Shown here: in pieces, positions 2,249 to 20,145 of the stretch | How positions within the stretch are numbered: the first letter of the stretch is position 1 | How the letters are laid out: every line of letters starts with the position of its first letter | NCBI RefSeq assembly: GCF_009812055.1 | Contig: NZ_WQNH01000019.1 | Coordinates: 1-64,000, forward strand | Source of the DNA: Chelativorans xinjiangensis | GTDB lineage: Bacteria; Pseudomonadota; Alphaproteobacteria; Rhizobiales; Rhizobiaceae | Length of the DNA stretch: 64,000 nucleotides | Reading direction: 5' to 3' | Program-made: the position numbers and the translations under genes | Notes under the pieces: model-generated | The model's input: the letters and a program-made list of their open reading frames with translations, nothing else | Told to the model about the DNA's origin: nothing | Databases searched by the model: none

Positions 2249-4447
2249 CTACGTTTCCTCGGCTGGTGCGACGGCGATCCGCGGCCGGTTGGAGGAAAGG
2301 GCGGCAAGAACGCCTTCCACCGGGCCGTCCGCCACCGGCCGTCCGTTCTTGACGACAATCGCCCGCCGCACGAGGGAGAGAACCGGCTGGCGGTGCGTGG
2401 CCACGACCAGCGTACGCCTGGTGAGCCACACGCGCATATTGTTGATGACACGCATTTCGAGCGTCTGGTCCATGGCCGCCGTCGGCTCGTCCAGGAGCAC
2501 GATCCGCGGGTCGCGCAGCCATATGCGGGCAAGCCCGATCGACTGGCGCTGCCCGCCGGAAACGCCTGCTCCTCCTTCGCCGATCTGCCGGTCAAGGCCG
2601 AGCGGATGGTCCCGCACCAGGTTTTCCGCACCGACGAAGGCCAGCGCCTCCAGAAGCTCCTCGTCCCCGCGCGCCGTCAGCCCCAGATTCAGATTGTCGC
2701 GCAAGGTGCCGTAAAACAGCCGCACGTCCTGCGGCAGGTAGGCAATGGCTCGACGAGCGTCGGCCGGGTCGATCTGGCGGATATCTGTACCGTCGAGCAG
2801 AAGCTGCCCCTGCGCAGGCTGATAGAGCCCGGCCAAAAGCTTGAGCAGCGTCGATTTGCCGGAACCGTTGGCGCCGAGCAGCGCCGTCGCCGTGCCGGGC
2901 TCGAAGGCGAGGGCTGGGATCCGCAGAGCCGGCTCGCTGTCCTGATCGTAGCGGAACGCCATCTCCTCGAGCCGATAGGCACCGGCAAGACGGGGGCGAT
3001 GAACGAACTTCCGCTCCGCCGGCCGGTCGATCGGCGCCTGCATGATCGCCTCCATCCCCTTGAGCGCCGCACGCATGTGCTGCCAGCGCGAGAAAATGCC
3101 GGCAAGCTGCGTCAGCGGTGCGGTCGTGCGCGAGGACAGGATCGCACAGGCCAACAGCCCGCCCGACGTCATGTGGCCGGCAGCGATCTGATAGACGCCG
3201 ACGACCATGACCAAGACATAGGAGGCCTGCTGCACCGCCGTGGCCGAATAGGTGAGCGTGCTGGACAACGCTCGCATACGTGCACCGTTACCGGCGAGGA
3301 GCGCGGTGTACTCCTCCCAAAGCCGCTGGAAATGCCCCTCGCCCTGCAGCGTCTTGACCGTTTCGGCACCGGACATCGCCTCAATCAGCAGGCCGTTGCG
3401 GATCGAACCTTCCTTCAAGTGCATGCGCGACATGCGCGATAGCGGCCACTGCGCCAATAGGCCAGGAAGGACGATGCAGGGTACGGCGGCAACCAGAACC
3501 CAGGCCACCGGTCCGCCGATCATGGCGATGATGCCGATGAAGAGAAGGACGAAGGGAAAGTCGCTGAGTGCGCCGATCGTCGTCGAGGTGAAGAACTCGC
3601 GGACCGAGTCGAACTCGCGCACCTGGTTGGTGAAAGAGCCGGTCGACTTCGGCCGCGCCTCCAGCCGCATGCCGAGCGCCCTTTCGAAAACCCGCGACGA
3701 AAGCGCGAGATCGAGCCTGCGGCCGACGATATCCACCAGATGGCTGCGCACGATTCGCATCACGGCTTCGATGAAGATGGCAAGCCCGACGCCAATGGCA
3801 AGAACCCACAGGGTGGCGAAGGCCAGGTTGGGCACCACGCGGTCGTAGACCTGCATCGAAAAGAGCGAGGTAGTCACCGCAAGCAAGTTGGCGACGGCGG
3901 CTGCGAGGGCGACTTCCACCACGTTCCACTTGTAGCGCGCGAACTCTCCCCAGAACCAGTGCCGCCTCGGCTCCCCGGCAAAACCCTCCGCGCGACCGTC
4001 GGTACGCACCAGCGGCGCGGCAAGGACCACGAGGCCGGAATGCTCCTCCTCGAGGTCCTTGCGCGACACGACATGCTCGCGGCTTTCCATTTCCGGTAGC
4101 AGGATCGTGCAACGACCGTCTTCGATTTTCGACAGCACGCATACGGTCCCGTCCCGCTGGACCAGGAGAACGGGCAGCAGTTCCGCGGCGATGGAGCCGA
4201 GCCTCTTCTCGTGCTTTACCCGGACGTCGAGATCCGCCCGGGCACCGGCGCGCCGCAGGAGAGCCAGCGTCATACGGCCGTCCGCAAGCGGAAGGCCCGC
4301 GGTCAATTCGCCGGCCGTGGACGGGCGATCATAGAGCCGGCAAAGCAGCAAAAGGCCCTCGAGCAGATCGTCCTGCGGACCGCGGCCAGAGGCCACGAAA
4401 CGCTCCGGCCGCCTCGCCGTCCAATCATGGCTTTCACCGGCGGTCAT
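2249..4447 (-). CDS. LapB/HlyB-family type I secretion ABC exporter (permease fused to ATPase)
   Basis: The 732-residue product has an N-terminal C39-like domain (about 20-145) without an obvious catalytic Cys-His pair, as in LapB and HlyB exporters that only bind their substrate. A six-helix exporter domain follows (about 165-450). The C-terminal nucleotide-binding domain carries Walker A GANGSGKST, signature VSGGQRQ and Walker B IVLLDEPTAAMD. It powers one-step secretion of a large protein, most likely the adhesin encoded downstream. Its ATG overlaps the TolC gene's TGA (ATGA), the usual coupling in this operon. Confidence 0.93.
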   Translation of the reverse strand: MTAGESHDWTARRPERFVASGRGPQDDLLEGLLLLCRLYDRPSTAGELTAGLPLADGRMTLALLRRAGARADLDVRVKHEKRLGSIAAELLPVLLVQRDGTVCVLSKIEDGRCTILLPEMESREHVVSRKDLEEEHSGLVVLAAPLVRTDGRAEGFAGEPRRHWFWGEFARYKWNVVEVALAAAVANLLAVTTSLFSMQVYDRVVPNLAFATLWVLAIGVGLAIFIEAVMRIVRSHLVDIVGRRLDLALSSRVFERALGMRLEARPKSTGSFTNQVREFDSVREFFTSTTIGALSDFPFVLLFIGIIAMIGGPVAWVLVAAVPCIVLPGLLAQWPLSRMSRMHLKEGSIRNGLLIEAMSGAETVKTLQGEGHFQRLWEEYTALLAGNGARMRALSSTLTYSATAVQQASYVLVMVVGVYQIAAGHMTSGGLLACAILSSRTTAPLTQLAGIFSRWQHMRAALKGMEAIMQAPIDRPAERKFVHRPRLAGAYRLEEMAFRYDQDSEPALRIPALAFEPGTATALLGANGSGKSTLLKLLAGLYQPAQGQLLLDGTDIRQIDPADARRAIAYLPQDVRLFYGTLRDNLNLGLTARGDEELLEALAFVGAENLVRDHPLGLDRQIGEGGAGVSGGQRQSIGLARIWLRDPRIVLLDEPTAAMDQTLEMRVINNMRVWLTRRTLVVATHRQPVLSLVRRAIVVKNGRPVADGPVEGVLAALSSNRPRIAVAPAEET

Positions 4448-5808
4448 GGGGCCTCTCCCGGGACAGCCAGTTGCAGCGAACCGAGCAACGTGCCGACGGC
4501 CCCCGCCGCCGCGTACTGCAGATCGAGAATGTCGTAGCGCACGTTTACGCGGCTGCTCTCGATGCGGAAGATGTCCGCCTGCATATTGACGAGATCGGCA
4601 ACTTTTCGCTCGCCGATCTTGAACTGATCCTCGTAAAGTGCGCGCAACGCGCGGGCTCTCTGGAGCTCGGCGCCGAGAATTCCCAGCCGGCTGCGCAGTG
4701 TCGGCTCCTGGTCCAAAAGCTGGCGCACCTGAAGGCTGGCACCGCGCCGCGCCGTCTCGGCAGCCCATTTCGCGCTATCGGCCTGCAGACGCGCCGCCTC
4801 GACTTTGTTGAAATTGCTCAACCCGACCACGGTCGGCCCGGTTATACGCAGGCCGAGCCCGGTGTCGGCTCCGCCGGAATTCTGGTCGCCGCGCACGAAA
4901 GCTTCCGCGCTCACCTTGGGCAGAAGGCCCGCCTGCTCCGACTTCACCGCCTGACGAGCCGCCGCCTCGCGGGCGCGCGCTGCCTTTACTGCCGGCGCTT
5001 CGGAAACTGCTGCATCGACGCCGGTATCCAGCGTCAACGGAAGCTCCGGCACCTCCGACAGACCATCGGCCTCGGCACCAACGCGCAGAAGGTAAACGCT
5101 GCGCGCCTTGCGCAGGGCGCCGCGGACATCCTCAAGGGCCGATTCCGCCTCTCCCTGCCGCACGCCGACGAGTTCAAGGTCTGTCGCATCGCCGACGCCG
5201 CCACTGGCACGCTGCTTGGCAAGCGCCGCAAAGCGGCGATAAACGGCGAGATTTCTTTCGGCCGCCGCGATCAGCCCCTCGCTGCGCTTTACCGCGATAT
5301 GGGCGGCCGCCGCCTCCAGAGCCGCCGTTTCGCGGGCATCCGTATATTCCGCCAGCGCCCCCGCCTGACCGGCTTTGGCCTGATCGACCTGTGCGCCGGT
5401 GCGCCCCCAATCGTAAAGCGGCTGGGCGAGCGAGACGCGATAGTCATAGGAATCTCGTGTTCCCACGGCGGCGCTGCTTTGCAACGACGGCTGATAGCCG
5501 GAATAGGCGATCTTGACGTCGACATCGGCAACGGAAAGGTCGGCCTGTGCACGCCGTATGGTGGAGCTATGGCCAAGTGCGGAGATAACCGAGGCCCGCA
5601 AGCTTCCCGCCTCTGCCGCCGCGGCACCGCCGCGGTTTACCGCGGACCGTTGCATGGGCGTGGCAGCGGCATCGGGCGGCTCTGTCTGGGCGATGGCAGC
5701 CGAAGTGCTCGCCCGCCCGCTGGAGGGGCCGGGCTTCTGAGCCGCGGGCATGCCGCCGGCGCATGCCTGCAGCACCAAACCTGCCATGAGGGTGAACACT
5801 ATGGGCAT
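4444..5808 (-). CDS. TolC/LapE-family outer membrane efflux lipoprotein of the type I secretion system
   Basis: The start chosen (454 residues) gives a lipoprotein signal peptide ending in an LQAC lipobox, with an AAGAGAG ribosome site upstream. The in-frame upstream start would bury this signal. The mature protein shows the duplicated long-helix plus beta-strand pattern of outer membrane efflux proteins, with many Ala/Gln/Arg-rich amphipathic heptads. A low-complexity Ala/Ser/Pro segment follows the signal. It is the first gene of the secretion operon, so it would supply the outer membrane channel. Lipid-anchored versions are common in this family. Confidence 0.88.
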   Translation of the reverse strand: MPIVFTLMAGLVLQACAGGMPAAQKPGPSSGRASTSAAIAQTEPPDAAATPMQRSAVNRGGAAAAEAGSLRASVISALGHSSTIRRAQADLSVADVDVKIAYSGYQPSLQSSAAVGTRDSYDYRVSLAQPLYDWGRTGAQVDQAKAGQAGALAEYTDARETAALEAAAAHIAVKRSEGLIAAAERNLAVYRRFAALAKQRASGGVGDATDLELVGVRQGEAESALEDVRGALRKARSVYLLRVGAEADGLSEVPELPLTLDTGVDAAVSEAPAVKAARAREAAARQAVKSEQAGLLPKVSAEAFVRGDQNSGGADTGLGLRITGPTVVGLSNFNKVEAARLQADSAKWAAETARRGASLQVRQLLDQEPTLRSRLGILGAELQRARALRALYEDQFKIGERKVADLVNMQADIFRIESSRVNVRYDILDLQYAAAGAVGTLLGSLQLAVPGEAP

Positions 5809-6463
5809 CGGACGCTCTCTTGAGCCGGAGTGGCTTCGTAGAGGGATCAAATTCTGCTCCTGCTTGATGACGGTATGCATGGCCAACGAGGAGAGGACGA
5901 TGTCGCGGATGAGCCGACACGAACCCGGCACCACATCCCCACGATGAGGATGCGCTGCCGCTGTCATGAATGGCGCCAGCAGCCAGATCGTCTGAACCCG
6001 CTCGACGCGGAAAACCGAACTCTGTTGCTGTGACTGCCCGTTTACGGGAAAAACGGACCATACCTGCGAGGCGATTTTCGTTTATCTATGCGCCAACTCA
6101 GATACCCGCTCTTCATAGGGCCAAATGCGTTAAGATACCTATAATTTTCCATAATAGTTATGAGTTATACCGGGATTATATATACGTTTGCCATAAACGA
6201 AACATCTGCACTTGTCGAGTGCCCACGCAGTCAATTTTTGCTGGACGCTTCTATTTGGGTGCGAACGGACGCCCCGCCGCTCTTCCAGTGGGTTCGCAAA
6301 CGGCCTGCCGCACGTCGTGACCCTCTGCCCCCTTTCCTCGGTCGCCTCGAATTGCTTCAGCTCAGGCTGACGGCATTGGGATTGAGCGGGCGGTCGTCCC
6401 GTTATAGCGGGATGTCCAACAACCTCACACGGCGGGGGAGGCGAACAGCGGTAGCGCTGTTTC
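5809..6463. other. Intergenic region, no convincing gene
   Basis: These 655 bp lie upstream of the secretion operon and downstream of the zinc-ribbon gene. Open frames here have poor composition and no family resemblance. An AT-rich stretch at about 6070-6210 stands out from the GC-rich surroundings and is the likely location of the secretion-operon promoter. No clear -35/-10 pair or palindrome was identified. Confidence 0.5.
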
Positions 6464-6938: not shown

Positions 6939-7904
6939 TTAGAGGGACAACTCGGTTGCAAGGCCTCTGCTGCGGGCGCCGGATGCGGCGACGGAGGCAA
7001 GGGCCAGATCCTGCAGACCGACGCCGGTGCCATCGAACAGGGTGATCTCGTCCGACGACGAGCGCCCGGGGTGCGTGCCGTTGACGACGGCACCGATAGG
7101 CGTGATCCGCGCTTCCTCGATCAGGCCGGCCTCTACCGCGTGCTGGCACTCGCCGATGCTGACCGCCTGGGCGACTTCATCAGTGAAGAGCTTTGCTGCG
7201 GCAACGAGTTCGGCGGCGACCTCCTGCTTGCCCCGGGTGTCGCTTCCCATGCAGGCCAAGTGCACGCCCGGCCGCACGTGATCGCGCATCAGGATCGGCG
7301 CAAAGCTCGAAGTGATGGTGATGATGACGTCGGCCTCCGCTCCAAGCCGCTCGAGCGGGACCGCCTTGAAGGGCAAACCCAGCTCCGCCGCGGTTTCCTC
7401 CAGCCGCGAGAGCATTTCGGGATGCGGGTTCCAGCCGATCACTTTCTCGAACTCCCGCTGCGCCGCTGCCGCCCGCATCTGGAAGGCGGACTGGAAGCCG
7501 GCGCCGACCATGCCGAGCACCCTGGCATCCGGGCGCGCCAGATAGCGGATGGAGACGGCAGAAGCCGCCGCGGTGCGCATGGCTGTCAGATAGTTGCCAC
7601 CGACCATCGCCTGCGGTCGCCCGGTATCGGGATCGAAGAGGAAGACGGTCGACTGATGATTGGTCAGACCCCGCTTCTCGTTGCCCGGCCAATAGCCGCC
7701 CGACTTCAACCCCAGTACGCCATGCGCACGGTCGAAGCCGGACTTGAAGCCGTAGAGCGCGTCCGCATGGCCGATCGCCTCGCGGATGACCGGGAAGTTG
7801 CAGGCCTCGCCGCTGGCCATGGCGGCGAAAACACCCTCCACGGCCGCAAAGGCGTCCTCGCGTGTGATGACGTTGCGGCAGGTTTCCTCCGTGACGACCA
7901 GCAT
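6939..7904 (-). CDS. bhcD: Iminosuccinate reductase of the beta-hydroxyaspartate cycle (ornithine cyclodeaminase/mu-crystallin fold)
   Basis: The 321-residue product has the ornithine cyclodeaminase/mu-crystallin fold, with a Rossmann motif VLGMVGAGFQSAFQ at about 130 and GGNYLTAMRTAAASA before it. In the beta-hydroxyaspartate cycle BhcD reduces iminosuccinate to L-aspartate with NAD(P)H, regenerating the amino donor for BhcA. The specific call rests on its place as fourth gene after bhcA, bhcB and bhcC. On sequence alone it would be labelled a generic ornithine cyclodeaminase family protein. It begins 9 nt after the bhcC stop. Confidence 0.85.
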   Translation of the reverse strand: MLVVTEETCRNVITREDAFAAVEGVFAAMASGEACNFPVIREAIGHADALYGFKSGFDRAHGVLGLKSGGYWPGNEKRGLTNHQSTVFLFDPDTGRPQAMVGGNYLTAMRTAAASAVSIRYLARPDARVLGMVGAGFQSAFQMRAAAAQREFEKVIGWNPHPEMLSRLEETAAELGLPFKAVPLERLGAEADVIITITSSFAPILMRDHVRPGVHLACMGSDTRGKQEVAAELVAAAKLFTDEVAQAVSIGECQHAVEAGLIEEARITPIGAVVNGTHPGRSSSDEITLFDGTGVGLQDLALASVAASGARSRGLATELSL

Positions 7905-7913
7905 GGCGGCGCC

Positions 7914-9068
7914 TCAGTAGGCCATGCCGCGCGCGGTGACCGGCCACAGGCATTCCACCTTGCCGTCGCGGATACCGACATACCAGTCGTAGATATTGCA
8001 GGTGGGGTCGCTATGGCCGGGCACGAGCTTCAGCTTGTCATTGAGCTTCAGCACGTTGCCGGGATCGGCGATAACGCCGTGTTCGTCGGAGCATTTGACG
8101 TATTCGACATCGTCGCGCCCGTAGATGACCGGCAGGCCGGAATCCACGCTCTGCGCCTTGAGGCCGGCGTCGCAGATCGCCTTGTCGGTCTTGGTCTTGG
8201 ACATGATCGACGTCCAGATGAACAAGCTGTTCTCGAACGCATGAATGAAATCGCCATCCTCGTCCCGCACCCTCTGGTAGTCGGCATCCATGAAAATGTA
8301 GGAGCCGCATTGCAGCTCGTTGTAGACGCCGGACGTGCCCTCGAAATAGTAGGAGCCCGTGCCGGCACCGCCGACGATCCCGCACTCCAGGCCTTCCAAC
8401 TTCAGCATGGCGACGGTGGCAGCGACCTGGGAGATGGCGGCGTCGATCTTCGCCTTGCGCTCCCTGTAGTCGTGAACGTGCTGGGCCGCGCCCTGGTAGG
8501 CCTGCAGGCCGGAGAATTCCAGCCCGGCGGCGGCGGCGATCTTCTTTGCCAGGTCGACTACCGGCTCGCCCCACTGCACACCGCAGCGCCCTGCCCCGCA
8601 ATCGATCTCGACCAGGCACTCGATCGTCGTGTCGTGCCTTTGTGCCGCCTTGGACAGGTCGTCGACATTGCCGAGATCGTCGACGCAAACGAGTGTGCGC
8701 GCCCGGCCTGCAAGCCGCGCCAGACGGTCGATCTTCCCGGAATCGACCACTTGGTTCGAGACAAGGACATCCCGCACACCGCCGGCGACGATCGCCTCGG
8801 CTTCCGACACCTTCTGGCAGCACACGCCGACCGCCCCGCCGAGTTCCATCTGAATGCGTGCGATATCGGCGGATTTATGCGTCTTGGCATGCGCTCGGTG
8901 GCGAACGCCCATCTCCTCGGCAAAGCGGCGCATGCGCTTCACATTGCGCTCGAAGGCGTCGAGGTCGATGATTAGTGCCGGCGTCTGCACCTCCTCCAGA
9001 TTCATGCCGACGGCGGCCGGAACGTTCAGGCCGACGACGGGCGCGGCGGTCTTGTTGAGGGCGTTCAT
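7914..9068 (-). CDS. bhcC: beta-hydroxyaspartate aldolase (D-threonine aldolase/alanine racemase fold type III)
   Basis: The 384-residue protein belongs to the PLP fold-type III D-threonine aldolase-like family. The PLP lysine lies in HAKTHK (about residue 63) and the C-terminal metal-binding region contains HSDPTCN. BhcC condenses glycine and glyoxylate to (2R,3S)-beta-hydroxyaspartate, the carbon-carbon bond-forming step of the cycle. The neighbours bhcB and bhcA on one side and bhcD on the other match the described order. A stand-alone reading would be D-threonine aldolase, but the full operon makes the BHAC role much more likely. Confidence 0.88.
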   Translation of the reverse strand: MNALNKTAAPVVGLNVPAAVGMNLEEVQTPALIIDLDAFERNVKRMRRFAEEMGVRHRAHAKTHKSADIARIQMELGGAVGVCCQKVSEAEAIVAGGVRDVLVSNQVVDSGKIDRLARLAGRARTLVCVDDLGNVDDLSKAAQRHDTTIECLVEIDCGAGRCGVQWGEPVVDLAKKIAAAAGLEFSGLQAYQGAAQHVHDYRERKAKIDAAISQVAATVAMLKLEGLECGIVGGAGTGSYYFEGTSGVYNELQCGSYIFMDADYQRVRDEDGDFIHAFENSLFIWTSIMSKTKTDKAICDAGLKAQSVDSGLPVIYGRDDVEYVKCSDEHGVIADPGNVLKLNDKLKLVPGHSDPTCNIYDWYVGIRDGKVECLWPVTARGMAY

Positions 9069-9099
9069 GGCATTCCTCCTTGTCCTTCAGGCGCGGTGC

Positions 9100-10053
9100 T
9101 CAGGCCGCCATCCAGGGCAGCTTGTCCAGGTCGACATTGCCGCCAGTGAGGACGACGCAGACCCGTTTTCCGGCAAAAATGTGCTTGTTCTTCAGGATTG
9201 CCGCCAAGGGGACGGCGCTCGATGGCTCGACGACGATCTTCATGCGCTGCCAGATGAGGCGCATCGCCTCGACGATTTCGTCTTCGGTGGCGAGGAGGAT
9301 GTCTTCCACGTAGCGGGAGACGAAGTGCCAGGTAAGTTCCTTGAGCGGCACCTTCAGCCCGTCCGCCACCGTCTGCGGCGCGTCGTCGGCAATGATATGG
9401 CCTGCCTTGAGGGAGCGGTGTGCATCGTCGGCGTTCTTCGGCTCGGCCGCATAGATCTTCGCTTGCGAGGCGATGGCCGACAAGGTCAGGCAGCAGCCCG
9501 AGATCATGCCGCCGCCGCCGATGGGGGCGATGACGGCATCGAGCGGGCCCAGTTGCTCGACGATTTCCTTCGCGCAAGTGCCTTGGCCGGCAATCACGCG
9601 GGGGTCGTTGTACGGGTGCACGAACTCGGCACCGGTCTCGGCCACCACTTCGGCGAGCATGGCCTCGCGCGAGGACGTGCTGGGCTCGCATTCGACGATC
9701 CGACCGCCATAGCCGCGCACCGCCGCCTTCTTGGGCTCCGGCGCTGTTTTCGGCATGACCACGGTTACCGGAATTCCGCGCTTGCCGGCAGCATAGCTGA
9801 GCGATAGCGCGTGGTTGCCCGATGAATGGGTGGCAACGCCTGCCGCCGCCTTCTCCTCATCCAGGCCGAACACGGCGTTGGAGGCGCCACGCACCTTGAA
9901 GGCACCGGCCTTCTGGAAATTCTCGCACTTGAAGAACAGGCTGGCGCCGGTGAGACCGTCGAGGAACGTGCTGGTGAAGATCGGCGTGCGGTGGATGTGC
10001 GGCGCGATGCGCGCATGCGCGGACACGACATCGTCGTAGGTGGGGATTTCCAT
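9100..10053 (-). CDS. bhcB: beta-hydroxyaspartate dehydratase (threonine dehydratase-like, PLP fold type II)
   Basis: The 317-residue catalytic domain has no C-terminal ACT regulatory domain. PLP-binding features are visible: the Schiff-base lysine in FQKAGAFKVRGA (about 53), the SSGNHA loop (about 78), the GGGG phosphate-binding glycines (about 178) and a C-terminal LTGGN motif. BhcB eliminates water from beta-hydroxyaspartate to give iminosuccinate, the substrate of BhcD. It would otherwise be called serine/threonine dehydratase. The operon position between bhcA (15 bp away) and bhcC decides the assignment. Confidence 0.88.
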   Translation of the reverse strand: MEIPTYDDVVSAHARIAPHIHRTPIFTSTFLDGLTGASLFFKCENFQKAGAFKVRGASNAVFGLDEEKAAAGVATHSSGNHALSLSYAAGKRGIPVTVVMPKTAPEPKKAAVRGYGGRIVECEPSTSSREAMLAEVVAETGAEFVHPYNDPRVIAGQGTCAKEIVEQLGPLDAVIAPIGGGGMISGCCLTLSAIASQAKIYAAEPKNADDAHRSLKAGHIIADDAPQTVADGLKVPLKELTWHFVSRYVEDILLATEDEIVEAMRLIWQRMKIVVEPSSAVPLAAILKNKHIFAGKRVCVVLTGGNVDLDKLPWMAA

Positions 10054-10068
10054 CCGTTCCGGCCCCCT

Positions 10069-11277
10069 TCACACTGCAGCGGGGACGGCCGAGGCGTCGT
10101 CCCCGCTGTGACCGGCACGATAGAACTCCTGCGCGGCACGTACGCCGGAGCCAAGTTTAATCGAAAGGCCCAGATCGGCCATGACCATTTCGGCGGTGGC
10201 GATGCCGGCGAGCGCCATGACGTCCGTCATGCTGCCCAGATGGCCGATGCGGAACACCTTGCCGGCCACCTCGCCGAGGCCGACGCCAAAAGCGACCCCG
10301 TATTTCTCGGCGGCGTGGGTGACGATCCTGGTAGCGTCGAAACCCGCAGGCACGATGACCGCGCTCACTGTGTCGGAGTAAAGGGAGGGCTCTCTTGCGC
10401 AGAGCGAGAGGCCCCACGCCTCCACCGCCTTGCGAACGCCCTCGGCGATCCTGCGATGGCGGCTGAAGACGCGAGGCAGCCCCTCCTCCTCCAGCATGGC
10501 GATCGACCGGCCGAGACCGCGAATGAGATTGACCGGTGGCGTGTAGGGAAAGCCGCCGGCGGCAGCGCTTTCCAACATATCGCGGAAATCGAGGAAGCAG
10601 CGGGGGCATTGCGCGGAGGCCATCACCTCCATGGCCTTCGGGCTGGCGCCGAGGATAGCCAGGCCCGCCGGCAGCATGAAGCCCTTCTGCGAGCCGGTGA
10701 TGGCGATGTCGACGCCCCATTCGTCCATGCGGAAATCCATGGAGGCGATGGAACTGACGCCGTCGACATAAAGGAGTGCGGGATGCTTCGCGGCATCGAT
10801 GGCGCGTCGCACGGCGGCGATGTCGCTTCGCACACCGGTGGCGGTTTCGTTGTGGCAGGCGAGCAATGCTTTGATCCGGTGCTCTCTGTCGGCCTTCAGC
10901 GCGCGCTCGATTTCCTCTGCCGGAGCGCCGGCACCCCACGGCGCCTCGATGACCTGGACATCGAGGCCGTGCCGCCGGCAGAGGTCGATCCAGCGGTGCG
11001 AGAACATGCCGTAGCGCGCAGCGAGAACCTTGTCGCCAGGAGAGAGCGTGTTGGTGACCGCCGCCTCCCACGCGCCGGTGCCGGTGGCGGGGAAAAGGAT
11101 GATTTCCGCGCTCTCCGTCTTGAGGACGCGCCGCACACCCTCCAGCGCCGGCTTATACATCTCCGCGAAGGCGGGCGAGCGGTGGTCGATCGACGGATAG
11201 TCCACGGCACGGCGGAGCCTTTCGGGGATGTTCGTGGGGCCCGGAACGAAAATCGGGTTTTGTGTCGACATCGGCAT
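10069..11277 (-). CDS. bhcA: Aspartate-glyoxylate aminotransferase of the beta-hydroxyaspartate cycle (class V)
   Basis: The 402-residue class V aminotransferase resembles serine-glyoxylate aminotransferases. It has the N-terminal VPGPTNIPE motif, the FPATGTGAWE cofactor loop (about 63) and the PLP lysine in SQKGFMLPAG (about 194). BhcA transfers the amino group of L-aspartate to glyoxylate, giving oxaloacetate (the cycle's product) and glycine (the BhcC substrate). It is the first gene of the operon, divergent from bhcR, with GGAG 3 nt before the ATG. A second in-frame ATG two codons on is also possible. Confidence 0.88.
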   Translation of the reverse strand: MPMSTQNPIFVPGPTNIPERLRRAVDYPSIDHRSPAFAEMYKPALEGVRRVLKTESAEIILFPATGTGAWEAAVTNTLSPGDKVLAARYGMFSHRWIDLCRRHGLDVQVIEAPWGAGAPAEEIERALKADREHRIKALLACHNETATGVRSDIAAVRRAIDAAKHPALLYVDGVSSIASMDFRMDEWGVDIAITGSQKGFMLPAGLAILGASPKAMEVMASAQCPRCFLDFRDMLESAAAGGFPYTPPVNLIRGLGRSIAMLEEEGLPRVFSRHRRIAEGVRKAVEAWGLSLCAREPSLYSDTVSAVIVPAGFDATRIVTHAAEKYGVAFGVGLGEVAGKVFRIGHLGSMTDVMALAGIATAEMVMADLGLSIKLGSGVRAAQEFYRAGHSGDDASAVPAAV

Positions 11278-11355
11278 TGTCTCCGAGACCTGGCCGCGAG
11301 CAGCGGCGTTTCAACAGGCAGATTAAGGCAGGCACTGGGGCGAAGGCAATTTTTT

Positions 11356-11444
11356 TGGAAAATATTTTCATTTTCTCGATTTACGGTTCAACCATCTGAT
11401 TTCATTGGTATTTAATATTTTGCGCCCTGTGCAAATCATTTCTG
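11356..11444. promoter_or_regulatory. Two IclR-type operator candidates between bhcA and bhcR
   Basis: The 223-bp divergent region holds TGGAAAATATTTTCA (11356-11370), whose core GAAAATATTTTC is a perfect 12-bp palindrome. It also holds TGCAAATCATTTCTG (11430-11444). Both fit the GAAAT-N-ATTTC pattern of several IclR-family operators. One lies 79 bp before the bhcA start and the other 57 bp before bhcR, so BhcR binding could control both directions. This is inferred from motif and position. Confidence 0.5.
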
Positions 11445-11500
11445 AAATCTTGACGCCGCGGTGAGGACGCATAACTCTGTGCGGCAATAGGGAGAAGATC

Positions 11501-12325
11501 ATGCCGCCCCATATCAGCCGCGCGCGGGGAAGGCCGCGCTCGTTCAACGACACATCGAAAAGCACGCTTATCCAATCGCTGGATCGCGCAATGGACGTGC
11601 TCAAGGTGGTGGCGAAGGGCCGCGGGATGTCGCTGACGGAGATCGCCGAGGCGTCCGGCCAGTCGGCGTCGACGGCTTACAGGATCCTGATTACGTTGGA
11701 GAAACATGGCATCGTCCAATTCGATGAGCCGGCGCAGCTCTGGCAGGTGGGATTGGAGGCATTCCGCATCGGCAGCAGCTTCCTTGGCCGCACGCACGTC
11801 GTCGAGCAAAGCCGGCCGGTCATGCAGCGGATCATGACGGCAACGGGGGAGACCGCAAATCTGGCCATCGTCGATCAAGGCGAGGTGATCTTCGTCAGCC
11901 AGGTCGAAACGCATGAGCCGATCCGCGCCTTCTTCCGGCCCGGCACGCGCGGCCCGATCCACGCCTCGGGCATCGGCAAGGCCTTGCTCGCCTTCTTTCC
12001 CGAGGCGCAGATCGAGGTGGTTCTCAAGAGGCGGGCGCTCACCGCCTTCACCGACAAGACGATCACCTCGAAAGAGGCGCTCCTTGCGGAACTCGAGCGC
12101 ATCCGCGTCCGCGGCTGGTCGATCGACGACGAAGAGCGCACACCCGGAATGCGCTGCATCGCCGCCCCCATCTTCAACCAGTTTGGCGAGGCGACGGCCG
12201 GCATCTCGCTGTCCGGCCCGTCGGTGCGCGTCACGCCCGAGCGCGACGCCGAATACGGCGCCCTCGTGCGCAAGGCGGCCGACGAGATCACCCGCGCCAT
12301 CGGCGGGAGCTGGCCGCAGCTCTAG
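11501..12325 (+). CDS. bhcR: IclR-family transcriptional regulator of the beta-hydroxyaspartate cycle
   Basis: The 274-residue protein has a winged helix-turn-helix (about residues 25-85, containing SLTEIAEASGQSASTAYR) followed by the IclR effector-binding domain (about 100-265, with RFF/HASGIGKALLAF and RGWSIDDEE motifs). In Paracoccus denitrificans BhcR is an IclR regulator that senses glyoxylate and controls the bhc operon; the divergent arrangement here is the same. A GGGAGAAG ribosome site precedes the ATG. The effector is inferred from that precedent. Confidence 0.87.
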   Translation: MPPHISRARGRPRSFNDTSKSTLIQSLDRAMDVLKVVAKGRGMSLTEIAEASGQSASTAYRILITLEKHGIVQFDEPAQLWQVGLEAFRIGSSFLGRTHVVEQSRPVMQRIMTATGETANLAIVDQGEVIFVSQVETHEPIRAFFRPGTRGPIHASGIGKALLAFFPEAQIEVVLKRRALTAFTDKTITSKEALLAELERIRVRGWSIDDEERTPGMRCIAAPIFNQFGEATAGISLSGPSVRVTPERDAEYGALVRKAADEITRAIGGSWPQL

Positions 12326-12358: not shown

Positions 12359-13651
12359 CTATTCGGATACGAAGGCGAACCGCAGGACGAAAAGTGCCGC
12401 GACGCTCCAGGTCGCCGGATGCACGGCGCGCGGGCGCCCCGCCAAGGTATTGATCACTGCGTAGCTGACGAAGCCGAAGGCCAGCCCGTTGGCAATCGAA
12501 TAGGTGAACGGCATCATCATCGCCGTCAGCACGGCCGGCACCGCCTCGGTCGTCTCCTCCCACTCGATCTCGACCAGTTCACGCATCATCAGAGCGGCCA
12601 CGTAAAGAAGCGCGGGCGCCGTCGCATAGGCGGGCACCGAACCGGCGAGTGGCGAGAACATCAAGGCCGCAAGGAACAGAACGGCAATCACCAGCGCCGT
12701 AAGCCCCGTGCGGCCGCCTGCCTGAACGCCCGAGGCGCTTTCGGCGTAGGCCGTCGTGCTGCTCGTTCCCAGCAGCGAGCCGGCAACGATCGCCGTACTG
12801 TCGGCCATCAGCGCGCGGCCGAGACGATTGGGCCGCTCGGGCTTCATGAGCCCGGCGCGTTTGGCCACGCCGATCAGCGTGCCCGTGGCGTCGAAAACCT
12901 CGACCAGAACGAAGACGAGGATGACATGCAGGAGCCCAGCGGAAAGCGCACCCCAGACGTCGAGCTGCATGAAGGTGGGCAGGATACTCGGCGGGGCCGA
13001 GACCACGCCCTGAAACTCGTTGATGCCCAGCAGCATCGACAGGACGGTCACCGCCAGAATGCCGATGAGGATGGCGCCGCGCACGTTGAGGGCGTCCAGC
13101 CCGGCGATGATGAAGAAGCCAAGAATGGCAAGCATGGGGCCAGCCTGGGAGAGATCGCCGAGGGTGACGAAAGTGGCCTCCGAGGCGACGACGATGCCGG
13201 AGCTCTTGAGCGCGATGATCGCCAGGAACAGCCCGATGCCGGCAACAATGGCGCAACGCATGGATTGCGGAATGCCCGAGATGAGCCAGCGCCGAACGCC
13301 GGTCACCGTCAGGATCAGGAAGATGACGCCGGAAACGAAAACCGCCCCCAGCGCCTGCTGCCAGGAAAACCCCATGGTGCCGACCACGGTGAAGGCGAAG
13401 AAGGCGTTTAGCCCCATGCCCGGCGCCATGCCGATCGGCCACTTCGCAAACAGCGCCATGATGAGAGTGCCGAGTGCGGCGGCAAGGCACGTCGCCACGA
13501 AGACGGCGCCGCGATCCATCCCCGTCGTGGAGAGGATCGCCGGATTGACGAAGATGATGTAGGCCATCGTCAGGAACGTGGTGACGCCGGCGATCACCTC
13601 GATGCGCACCGACGTGCCGTGGGCCCGCAGATCAAAGAGCTTTTCGAACAT
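12359..13651 (-). CDS. AzgA-like NCS2 family purine/nucleobase permease
   Basis: The 430-residue membrane protein has about 12-14 hydrophobic segments. The first helix motif GVTTFLTMAYIIFVNP and the GMGLNAFFAF motif are typical of the AzgA branch of the NCS2/nucleobase-ascorbate family, which takes up adenine, guanine or hypoxanthine with protons. A strong GGGAGGAGA ribosome site fixes the start; an in-frame upstream start lacks membrane-protein character and is rejected. It converges on bhcR with a 33-bp gap. The exact substrate cannot be read from sequence. Confidence 0.85.
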   Translation of the reverse strand: MFEKLFDLRAHGTSVRIEVIAGVTTFLTMAYIIFVNPAILSTTGMDRGAVFVATCLAAALGTLIMALFAKWPIGMAPGMGLNAFFAFTVVGTMGFSWQQALGAVFVSGVIFLILTVTGVRRWLISGIPQSMRCAIVAGIGLFLAIIALKSSGIVVASEATFVTLGDLSQAGPMLAILGFFIIAGLDALNVRGAILIGILAVTVLSMLLGINEFQGVVSAPPSILPTFMQLDVWGALSAGLLHVILVFVLVEVFDATGTLIGVAKRAGLMKPERPNRLGRALMADSTAIVAGSLLGTSSTTAYAESASGVQAGGRTGLTALVIAVLFLAALMFSPLAGSVPAYATAPALLYVAALMMRELVEIEWEETTEAVPAVLTAMMMPFTYSIANGLAFGFVSYAVINTLAGRPRAVHPATWSVAALFVLRFAFVSE

Positions 13652-13970
13652 TTCTCCTCCCGCCTGCGCGCGGCGAACCGGCTGCAGCGTTTGCGTTGGT
13701 GATAGGCCTGCCTCTCGCTTGCGAAGCGGAACGCCGCTCCTCAGGCGCCTCACCTTTCCGGCTTCGTATCCTCATCTCCCGAAGCCGCATGAGCGACGCC
13801 CCGGACGACCTCCGGGGCATCATCGCGCCGGACAAACCTCCAAGGTTGCCAGCAGCGCGAAGCTAAAGCCGTTCGCGCAAACGGCAAGAGCGTGGAGGTG
13901 GAAGGAGTTTCAAAAAAAGATGGTGGGAGGCGGGGTGGTGGTGGGGAGGAAGCCTCTTGATCTGGGCGAG

Positions 13971-17889: not shown

Positions 17890-19017
17890 TCAGGCCGAGT
17901 GCGGCGTCATTTCGGGTTCTGACAATCGGGGGCATTGTCCTGTTCCTCCCCCCGAGTGCGGACCGCTGCTCGGCGCTCCAACGGATTCCCGCACCAATAG
18001 CTGGCATCGTTCGAGCCGCGCCGTCGGCGGCCCGGTCTCGCCGTCTATGCGGCGAAAAAGCATATCCATGGCCTGGGCGGCGATCTGGCCGACCGGCTGC
18101 ACGACGGCGGCGATCGTCGGCCACGTGACCGACATCCATTCCGCGTCGTCGAAGCCGACCAGCGAGATGTCGTCCGGGCAGTGCCAGCCGCGGCGGCGGA
18201 ACTCGCTCAGGGCGACGAGGGTCCCTTTGAGAAACAGGGAAAAAACCGCGGTCGGCCGCTCGCCACGCGAGAAGTAGTCGCGGATCGAGGCGCGCAACGG
18301 CTCCACGTCGCTCTCGCACAGGATCACGTCGATCCGCACCTTCGGATCCAGCGCTTCCGCCGTTTTGCGGAACCCTTCGAGACGCGCCCGCACGCAGGCT
18401 CCCTGCTCTCCAAGCCCGACCACCAGCACATGGCGGTGGCCACGCCCGATGAGCTCGCGTGCAACCTCCGCGCTCGCCGAGAGGCTGTCGGCCGAAACCG
18501 TGTCGAAGGATTTGTCGGAGAGCACCCGGTCGATCATCACGCCGGTCATCCCGTGCGCCTGCATCAGCTCGCCGCCCCGGCCATGCTCGTCGCGCACGGG
18601 GGCCAGCACGACACCGGCCACGCGCCAGTCCTGCATGCGCCTCAGGATTTCCGCTTCGCGCTCCTCGGACTCGCCGCTCGACGCGGCCACCAGCGTGTAG
18701 CCGCGCAGTTCCGCAAGACGCTCCAGATGCGTGACCATGGAGCCGAAGAACTCGCTTTCGAATTCCGGCAGGATCGCTCCGATGATGCGGCGCTTGGCGC
18801 GCCTCAAGTCCGAGGCAAGCGGATCCGCCCGGTAGCCCAGCCGCTCCACCGCCTCGAAAACGCGCTGTGCGTTCTCCGGCTTCACGGTCGGCACGCCGTG
18901 CATGACCTTCGAGACGGTCGCCGCCGACACGCCCGCATGGTTCGCCACGTCGTGGATCGACGGCCGCTTGTGCACGGCACCGCTCGACAAACGCTCCTCC
19001 CAAAGCTCGCTTTCCAA
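17890..19017 (-). CDS. LacI-family transcriptional regulator of the sugar transport operon
   Basis: The 375-residue protein has an N-terminal LacI helix-turn-helix (about residues 18-65: SIHDVANHAGVSAATVSKVM) with a hinge helix. A sugar-binding domain of type I periplasmic binding fold follows to about residue 345. The C-terminal 25-30 residues are low complexity. It lies directly upstream of the binding-protein gene on the same strand and divergent from the 2-hydroxyacid dehydrogenase gene. Two AAATCG-type palindromic sites lie in the 96-bp divergent gap, so it probably represses both directions until its sugar is present. Confidence 0.9.
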   Translation of the reverse strand: MESELWEERLSSGAVHKRPSIHDVANHAGVSAATVSKVMHGVPTVKPENAQRVFEAVERLGYRADPLASDLRRAKRRIIGAILPEFESEFFGSMVTHLERLAELRGYTLVAASSGESEEREAEILRRMQDWRVAGVVLAPVRDEHGRGGELMQAHGMTGVMIDRVLSDKSFDTVSADSLSASAEVARELIGRGHRHVLVVGLGEQGACVRARLEGFRKTAEALDPKVRIDVILCESDVEPLRASIRDYFSRGERPTAVFSLFLKGTLVALSEFRRRGWHCPDDISLVGFDDAEWMSVTWPTIAAVVQPVGQIAAQAMDMLFRRIDGETGPPTARLERCQLLVRESVGAPSSGPHSGGGTGQCPRLSEPEMTPHSA

Positions 19018-19030
19018 GCCAAACTATTGA

Positions 19031-19064
19031 TAAATCGATTTTTCAGTGCTGTAAATCGTTTTAT
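19031..19064. promoter_or_regulatory. Two LacI-type operator candidates
   Basis: The 96-bp divergent region between the LacI-type gene and the dehydrogenase gene carries AAATCGATTT (19032-19041), a perfect palindrome with a central CG as in LacI-family operators. A related TAAATCGTTTTAT site lies at 19052-19064. They are about 20 bp centre to centre, roughly two helical turns, so two dimers could bind on the same face. Confidence 0.55.
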
Positions 19065-19113
19065 CGTGGATGTACGCCTGATACTGTCCGCAAATCGCGC
19101 AGGGAGGAAAATT

Positions 19114-20145
19114 ATGGCCGAGACACCGAGGCCGCTGGTCATCAGCGCACCGGAACCGCGCACACTGGACCTGATCTTCACGCCCGAGGCCCGACGTCGG
19201 CTGCATGAGGGCTACGACATCCGAGAGACCGACGCCGCGCAGCTGCACCGCCTTGAAGAGGAGGTGCTCGGCCTCGCACGCTATATCATCGGGCAGCCGC
19301 CGATCTCGCCGGAAACGCTCGGCCGGATGAAGAGCCTGCGCTGCGTCTTCAACGTCGAGACCAATCTCATCAACAACATGCCCTACGAGACGCTCTTCGA
19401 GCGCGGTATCCACGTGGTGACCACCGGAGCGGTGTTCGCAGAGCCGGTGGCGGAGATGGGGTTGGCGCTGGCGCTCAACCTTGCGCGCGGCATCGTCAAC
19501 GCGGATCTCGACTTCCGTCGCGGCCGCGAGCTGTGGGGCGGTGACGGCAATGCCTCCGCACGCCTCGTCTCGGGCTCCGAGATCGGCATCGTCGGCTTCG
19601 GCGATCTCGGCCGCGCGCTCAATCGCGTGCTTGCCGGCTTTCGCGCCAGGGTCCGGGTTTTCGACCCGTGGCTGCCGCCCTCCATCCTGCGCGAAGCGGG
19701 CGTGGAGCCGGCCGCGCTCGACACCGTGCTTTCCGAAAGCGACTTCGTCTTCGTCGTCGCGGCGGTGACGACCGAGAACCGCGGCTTCCTCGGCGCCGAG
19801 GCCTTTCAGAAGATGCGGCCGGGCGCCGCCTTCATCCTGCTCAGCCGGGCCGACGTCGTGGATTTCGACGCCCTGATGGAGGCCGTGCGGCGTGGCCATA
19901 TCGTGGCGGCGAGCGACGTCTTCCCCGAAGAGCCCCTGCCCGCCGATCATCCCGTGCGCTCCCTCGACGGCTTCCTGCGCTCCGCGCATCGCGCCGGCGC
20001 CCTCGACATCGCCTTCAAGCGCATGGGCGACATGGTGCTCGAAGACATGGCGCTGATGGACCGCGGACTGCCGCCGATGCGCTGCAAGCGCGCCGAGCGC
20101 GAGACAGTCTCGCGTATGCGCTCGAAGCCGGTCGAGAGGAACTAA
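19114..20145 (+). CDS. D-isomer-specific 2-hydroxyacid dehydrogenase family protein
   Basis: The 343-residue protein has the two-domain formate/glycerate dehydrogenase fold. It has a substrate-domain N-terminus, a NAD(P) Rossmann motif IGIVGFGDLGRAL (about 160), the catalytic Arg region LLSRADVVDFDAL, the conserved acidic DVFPEEPLPADHP and a C-terminal catalytic-type His in SAHRAGALD. AGGGAGGA precedes the ATG, which rules out the much earlier in-frame start. Transcribed divergently from the LacI-regulated transporter, it probably reduces a sugar-derived 2-keto acid or oxidises the hydroxy acid. The substrate is unknown. Confidence 0.85.
   Translation: MAETPRPLVISAPEPRTLDLIFTPEARRRLHEGYDIRETDAAQLHRLEEEVLGLARYIIGQPPISPETLGRMKSLRCVFNVETNLINNMPYETLFERGIHVVTTGAVFAEPVAEMGLALALNLARGIVNADLDFRRGRELWGGDGNASARLVSGSEIGIVGFGDLGRALNRVLAGFRARVRVFDPWLPPSILREAGVEPAALDTVLSESDFVFVVAAVTTENRGFLGAEAFQKMRPGAAFILLSRADVVDFDALMEAVRRGHIVAASDVFPEEPLPADHPVRSLDGFLRSAHRAGALDIAFKRMGDMVLEDMALMDRGLPPMRCKRAERETVSRMRSKPVERN

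Follow-up and report, generated by a model that had tools for sequence, protein, structure and literature searches.

A probable beta-hydroxyaspartate cycle operon with a divergent BhcC-like aldolase in Chelativorans xinjiangensis, and purine genes beside related loci

The bhc locus and its family assignment

We analyzed a 64,000-nucleotide stretch of Chelativorans xinjiangensis DNA (assembly GCF_009812055.1, contig NZ_WQNH01000019.1, positions 1 to 64,000 of the forward strand; hereafter the window), which makes up the first 64,000 of the 75,703 bases of contig C30 in a host assembly of 5.69 Mb and 118 contigs. An earlier note on this DNA, made from the letters alone, had placed a locus for the beta-hydroxyaspartate cycle (BHAC), bhcABCD with a divergent bhcR, at 6939-12325, and we found the frames at exactly this span and on the strands it gave. 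The four enzyme genes follow one another in A-B-C-D order on the minus strand: bhcA, for a predicted L-aspartate--glyoxylate aminotransferase (10069-11277; 402 aa with a start at 11277 or 11271, the family match beginning at 11271), bhcB, for a predicted beta-hydroxyaspartate dehydratase (9100-10053; 317 aa), a gene in the bhcC position for a BhcC-like 3-hydroxy-D-aspartate aldolase of a divergent clade (7914-9068; 384 aa), and bhcD, for a predicted iminosuccinate reductase of the ornithine cyclodeaminase/mu-crystallin family (6939-7904; 321 aa). The IclR-type regulator gene bhcR (11501-12325, plus strand; 274 aa) adjoins bhcA, from which it diverges across 223 bp. In codon-position G+C content all five frames show the profile of genuine genes (0.82-0.87 at the third position, 0.41-0.50 at the second).

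Families were assigned by the curated cut-offs of NCBIfam 20.0. The best family match of each protein was its Bhc equivalog, with E-values from 1.7e-123 to 1.4e-217. BhcA scored 722.3 bits with NF045640 (cut-off 650; next family 181.8), BhcB 605 bits with NF045641 (cut-off 550; next family threo-3-hydroxy-L-aspartate ammonia-lyase, 368.7 with a cut-off of 452), BhcD 585.7 bits with NF045643 (cut-off 500; next family 197) and BhcR 411.1 bits with NF045644 (cut-off 350; next IclR, 209.1 with a cut-off of 380). The C-position protein reached 678.7 bits with NF045642 (next family 19), below the annotation threshold of 690 bits; as four of the five proteins pass their cut-offs and this one misses it, we call it BhcC-like. 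The earlier note had named some families to which the proteins might belong instead. All five proved nearest to Bhc proteins, ahead of the families of serine-glyoxylate aminotransferase, threonine dehydratase, D-threonine aldolase, ornithine cyclodeaminase and IclR. Its expectation that automated annotation would give five unrelated labels and miss the pathway holds for the BhcC-like protein alone, whereas NCBIfam 20.0 names the other four. In the PDB, the best match of BhcD is the iminosuccinate reductase 6rqa (458.7 bits; next 157.8). The names BhcA, BhcB and BhcR do not occur among the PDB matches listed for these three proteins, and their assignment rests on the NCBIfam scores and on locus comparisons.

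To see the locus among its relatives, we collected loci through BhcA, taking the best 80 of at least 585 BhcA relatives. Gene order A-B-C-D is kept in 75 of these 80, and bhcR diverges from bhcA in 78 (exceptions, L004 and L076); of the five loci lacking the full order, L021, L042, L052 and L077 stop at a contig edge and L057 has no bhcB match. Adding Paracoccus denitrificans, the window and ten more loci (six from the same genus, four from the same order) gave a set of 92, of which 49 come from Paracoccaceae and Roseobacteraceae, so that the loci are not independent. Trees were built from 85 loci, leaving out L021, L042, L052, L057, L077, L079 and L132 for missing or short genes. Locus L132 (8392-9588; genome G002) holds bhcA and bhcR without bhcB, bhcC or bhcD in its 19 kb stretch, and no BhcC match was found in G002 at an E-value of 1e-30. 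Locus L068 comes from a record under the title Nocardioides marinus; in both the BhcA and the BhcC tree it clusters with Leisingera and Roseobacter, which may reflect contamination of the assembly.

The closest relatives of the locus are those of C. salis (L001) and genome G001 (L123), which share the operon, the clade of the BhcC-like protein, a permease gene convergent with bhcR and the neighboring sugar ABC genes, with Bhc proteins 92-97% identical to those of the window (92% for C. salis BhcA). The described system of P. denitrificans (strain HAMBI_2443, L118; PMC11323563) has the same gene set, order and divergent regulator, and its BhcR has the same glyoxylate-contact residues. The earlier note had called the match to it exact; this stands for gene order, but the proteins are only 50.2-72.0% identical (A 71.2%, B 72.0%, C 60.5%, D 66.7%, R 50.2%) and bhcC belongs to another clade.

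The five neighboring genes thus very probably encode a complete BHAC locus; their arrangement is not due to chance. The pathway is already known, and as a system the locus is an ordinary further case of it. We are highly confident that it is a complete, probably working operon under its own glyoxylate-responsive regulator. BhcA would move the amino group from aspartate onto glyoxylate, which yields glycine and oxaloacetate; by the BhcC-like aldolase this glycine would be joined to a second glyoxylate to form beta-hydroxyaspartate, which BhcB would dehydrate to iminosuccinate; and BhcD would reduce iminosuccinate to aspartate, closing the cycle. BhcR would sense glyoxylate and switch the operon on, probably from a palindrome upstream of bhcA, and the glyoxylate would most likely come from glycolate, through glcDEF on contig C44, and from purines, through a gene cluster on contig C34. 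The cycle has the net effect of turning two glyoxylate into one oxaloacetate without loss of CO2 (PMC11323563). Several points weigh against so complete a picture: the BhcC-like protein misses its cut-off and, at 60.5%, has the lowest identity to P. denitrificans of the four enzymes; the GlcD of the host stays under both GlcD cut-offs (552.2 against 567.9 and 731.6 against 897); and a gene not found is no proof of absence, because the assembly consists of 118 contigs.

A divergent bhcC clade and its apparent exchange

The BhcC tree splits with a support of 100 into 76 rows that include P. denitrificans and 9 rows that include the window, L007 and L008; we refer to these clades as type I and type II, labels coined in the present analysis. 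All nine type II proteins lie under the NF045642 cut-off (622.0-680.0), and the four type I proteins scored, of the 76 in the tree, all lie above it (752.1-775.3). The clades are separated by 25 diagnostic columns, two of which are gaps; among them is HAKTHK in type II for HGKMHK around the presumed pyridoxal phosphate (PLP) lysine. Two homologues that are more distant, L155 and L156, have HAKTHK or HAKSHK as well. The window protein retains the motifs HAKTHK and GHSDPTCN, which we take to carry the PLP lysine and the metal ligands, and it is expected to work like BhcC. Since type II proteins fall below the cut-off of the current model, genomes that carry them can appear to have an incomplete cycle.

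The history of bhcC differs from that of its neighbors. BhcA, BhcB and BhcD of the window, C. salis and G001 are closest to those of L002, L003, L129, L130 and L131 (A 83-86%, B 82-86%, D 79-83%). By contrast, their BhcC proteins are 65-67% identical to those of the same five loci and 80-82% identical to those of L004, L012, L013 and L015. The three loci and the five of the first list form a genus clade of eight rows in the trees of BhcA (support 99, starred), BhcB (90) and BhcD (89), the latter two not being starred, and this clade is rejected by the BhcC data in the approximately unbiased (AU) test (log-likelihood 157 lower, p=1.15e-5). Along the operon DNA, a maximum-scoring segment together with sliding identity delimits a stretch at 7991-9064 (minus strand), nearly the whole of bhcC, that appears to have been swapped with a type II relative, since type-II-like sites make up 123 of the 183 informative ones within 9064-7991 and 52 of the 270 outside. 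The best reading of these comparisons is that bhcC alone was probably swapped, inside an otherwise vertically related operon, in an ancestor of the window genome, C. salis and G001. That the exchange fell to these three genomes and not to the other five follows by parsimony from the BhcA tree, at a node with a support of 91.

This reading has its own weak points. Neither the BhcA data (p=0.072) nor the BhcB data (p=0.505) reject the nine type II rows as a clade; among A, B and D only the BhcD data do (p=0.027), so the mirror-image tests are weak. The trees were built in the quick mode, and the groups received their names only once the identity table and the trees had been inspected, which makes the p-values optimistic. 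Rooting of the BhcC tree with distant homologues proved unreliable because of long branches, with L152 and L153 landing among type I.

Two observations stand beside this tree. L152 and L153 encode BhcC-like proteins (53-56% identical) that carry the PLP-lysine motif of type I; genome G015 has no BhcA-family match and G028 has a single one at 1e-50. In the same-genus genome G008, a second BhcC-like gene (64%; C14, 61907-63067) lies on a contig apart from the bhc operon.

The ligand site of BhcR and a candidate operator

The window BhcR equals that of P. denitrificans at seven of nine ligand positions, taken from Table 1 of PMC11323563, including all five oxygen contacts. The two differences, Pro for Thr at 143 and Gly for Ser at 154, both lie in the hydrophobic patch. 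Across 90 BhcR sequences, Ala146, Gly160, Asp212, Met220, Ser239 and Ser241 are present in all 90 and Ile161 in 89, with positions 143 and 154 variable. BhcR shares its fold family and most of the oxygen-contacting ligand residues with E. coli IclR and AllR, but it lacks their hydrophobic pyruvate patch and has Ile in place of Ala at 161.

In P. denitrificans, BhcR reportedly works as an activator, and a possible palindrome has been described ahead of the -35 region of bhcA (PMC11323563). We fitted a palindromic motif, ATTTTTCnGAAAAAT, on 52 Rhodobacterales bhcR-bhcA intergenic regions from a total of 92 (96 minus four duplicates). In 35 of the 40 held-out regions the best site for ATTTTTCnGAAAAAT exceeded the 95% dinucleotide-shuffle threshold, and in 36 of the 40 it began 61-90 bp upstream of the bhcA alignment. 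The motif seeds were picked after sites including those of held-out loci had been seen, the weights being fitted on the 52 training regions alone, and distances were measured to the start of the bhcA alignment, which is not always the start codon. In the window the motif site lies at 11349-11363 (p=0.001). It overlaps a palindrome ending at 11370 that resembles an IclR box, so that the candidate BhcR operator spans 11349-11370, with minus-strand ATTTTCCAAAAAAAT (11363-11349) overlapping TGAAAATATTTTCCA (11370-11356); the GAAAA/TTTTC palindrome resembles the IclR box. The conserved palindrome about 60-90 bp upstream of bhcA is a candidate BhcR site. A second BhcR site near bhcR has been proposed for dual control (PMC11323563). 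We saw no conserved second site near bhcR in the 92 regions, where 100 of the 108 above-threshold sites sit 60-99 bp from the bhcA alignment start, a distribution that would still allow a weaker or different site.

Glyoxylate sources and purine genes beside bhc loci

We next turned to the glyoxylate supply of the host. The earlier note had let glycolate or glyoxylate reach the cell from algae; this origin is not shown by our data, and purines are another possible source of glyoxylate. Contig C44 carries glcD-glcE-glcF with a divergent GntR/FCD regulator (GlcE 289.1 with a cut-off of 284, GlcF 477.1 with a cut-off of 333), and because these genes and their regulator occur in the same genome, growth of the host on glycolate is plausible on sequence grounds. 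P. denitrificans likewise has glcDEF with a GntR regulator elsewhere in its genome (glcR-glcDEF; PMC11323563). On contig C34 the host has a purine cluster. One strand encodes ureidoglycolate lyase, ureidoglycine aminohydrolase and PuuE allantoinase, the other 5-hydroxyisourate (HIU) hydrolase and the small and large subunits of xanthine dehydrogenase. In C. salis this cluster and bhc lie on a contig of the same number and length (216,483 bases), where the HIU hydrolase gene is found at 52.5 kb and bhcA at 106 kb. The window genome encodes both malate synthase G and isocitrate lyase. For the glycerate pathway, a rival route, the first enzyme is missing at the curated cut-off, because the best match to glyoxylate carboligase (TIGR01504) in this genome scores 364.7 against a cut-off of 711.2. 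The ethylmalonyl-CoA pathway was set aside, there being no crotonyl-CoA reductase (Ccr) above its cut-off in the window genome. The genus name Chelativorans also points to ethylenediaminetetraacetate (EDTA) and nitrilotriacetate (NTA) as glyoxylate sources, and this candidate was rejected, with no TIGR03860 match in the window genome. EDTA and NTA have been suggested as glyoxylate sources in PMC11323563.

We then clustered the frames that flank bhc in the 92 loci and named the representatives by NCBIfam or Pfam. The names include xanthine permease, hydroxyisourate hydrolase, (S)-ureidoglycine aminohydrolase, ureidoglycolate lyase, PuuE allantoinase fused to an OHCU decarboxylase domain, 8-oxoguanine deaminase, guanine deaminase, the small and molybdopterin subunits of xanthine dehydrogenase, and a Urate_ox_N protein, which we take to be PuuD. 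Tblastn searches (identity thresholds of 35% for most purine genes, 38-50% for some and 45% for glcD and glcF) found at least one of eleven purine-related genes in 53 of the 92 loci and at least two in 41, with HIU hydrolase in 33, PuuD in 28, the aminohydrolase in 26, PuuE in 20 and ureidoglycolate lyase in 19; glcD and glcF occur in two loci, both from Ensifer. The count for xanthine permease depends on the method (36 loci by single-linkage clustering, 5 at 38% identity). Among the first 50 of the 80 loci by rank, 16 contain HIU hydrolase, where random placement, given the copy number of the gene and the sizes of the genomes, would predict 0.27; the gene is present somewhere in 48 of these 50 genomes. 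Its linkage is seen in 17 of 37 Paracoccaceae, 8 of 12 Roseobacteraceae, 1 of 4 Stappiaceae and 6 of 13 unassigned loci, and in L068; by tblastn it was absent beside bhc in the loci of Rhizobiaceae (0/6), Phyllobacteriaceae (0/6) and the further loci of the window's own family (0/6). On the BhcA tree, which is weakly resolved, the linkage (33 of 85 rows) needs at least 14 changes.

In P. denitrificans the same strand continues after bhcD with a gene of the xanthine-permease family (510.8, cut-off 414.15), 8-oxoguanine deaminase, HIU hydrolase and PuuD, whose alignments, counted from bhcD on, lie 57, 12, 23 and 211 bp apart. These genes are absent from the window, where a different permease of the NCS2 (xanthine/uracil) family (12359-13753, minus strand; PF00860 193.5 bits, gathering cut-off 27) faces bhcR tail to tail at a distance of 33 bp. 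This gene, which we presume to be of the AzgA type, is the sole purine sign in the window itself, and its relatives occur in 11 of the 92 loci, in Phyllobacteriaceae-type loci and Paracoccus. On balance we lean towards the view that in many Alphaproteobacteria, P. denitrificans included, the BHAC is genetically wired to purine catabolism, with bhcABCD leading into or facing genes of purine uptake, urate oxidation and the degradation of 5-hydroxyisourate and allantoin. The cycle would then recover carbon at the end of purine breakdown no less than it serves glycolate use; the bhcABCD-permease-deaminase-HIU hydrolase-puuD genes of P. denitrificans may form one transcription unit. If the tie is regular, the account of the BHAC as a pathway for algal glycolate needs a second substrate, and surveys that equate bhc genes with growth on glycolate would over-interpret them. 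Purines and allantoin are named as glyoxylate sources in one introductory sentence of PMC11323563, the main text of which contains "purine" twice, "allantoin" three times and "ureidoglycolate" not at all, with no passage on linked purine genes. Among the titles listed in the literature searched, none dealt with bhc-purine gene linkage; as this literature did not cover the founding 2019 paper, we do not claim that the linkage is unpublished.

A stronger version of this view would make the operon mainly one of purine and ureide catabolism, with glyoxylate from ureidoglycolate lyase as the usual substrate and glycolate secondary. The excess of HIU hydrolase over random placement, the purine genes that outnumber glcD and glcF beside bhc, their same-strand position after bhcABCD in P. 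denitrificans and the tail-to-tail permease of the window all speak for it. It is nevertheless a tentative idea that we consider less likely than not: the purine cluster of the window genome sits on a separate contig, the permease is convergent and outside the operon, HIU hydrolase is missing near bhc in each of the three groups of six loci named above, and growth of P. denitrificans on glycolate and glyoxylate requires bhcABCD and bhcR (PMC11323563).

Two further readings touch other parts of the complete, probably working BHAC operon that we prefer. The C-position protein might be a D-threonine aldolase or another aldolase that has replaced the original enzyme and left the cycle incomplete, as the low scores of all nine type II members and their diagnostic columns could be taken to mean. 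We consider this very unlikely, because the best solved relative of the protein is the D-3-hydroxyaspartate aldolase BhcC (6qkb) with 521.4 bits against 379.1 for the next, the D-threonine aldolase 7dib, and because BhcC-like proteins from genomes without an above-cut-off BhcA (L152-L154) are more distant from it (51-56%) than type I BhcC (about 59-72%); each of the nine type II genes also stands in a bhc operon, though by construction, the loci having been collected by BhcA. Still less credible is a cycle that serves oxalate use in some members of the genus. In the same-genus genome G007, oxalyl-CoA decarboxylase (1023.9, cut-off 557) and formyl-CoA transferase (729.5, cut-off 442) do follow bhcR (L129, 11369-14449), and oxalate strengthens the binding of P. 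denitrificans BhcR to DNA in vitro (PMC11323563), but the arrangement is seen in one of the 92 loci and oxalyl-CoA decarboxylation, by established knowledge, yields no glyoxylate; moreover, P. denitrificans does not grow on oxalate (PMC11323563).

Other genes of the window lie outside the operon. Adjoining bhcD, positions 2249-5967 hold genes for a type I secretion ATPase/permease of the LssB type and a TolC-type protein, which are not found in the C. salis stretch and are present beside bhcD in G001. A tRNA-Lys predicted at 2259-2341 runs into the end of the frame for the ATPase and is perhaps spurious. Farther along, a long frame at 18181-20145 resembles D-2-hydroxyacid dehydrogenases in its second half, with glyoxylate reductase as the best match (123 bits, cut-off 455).

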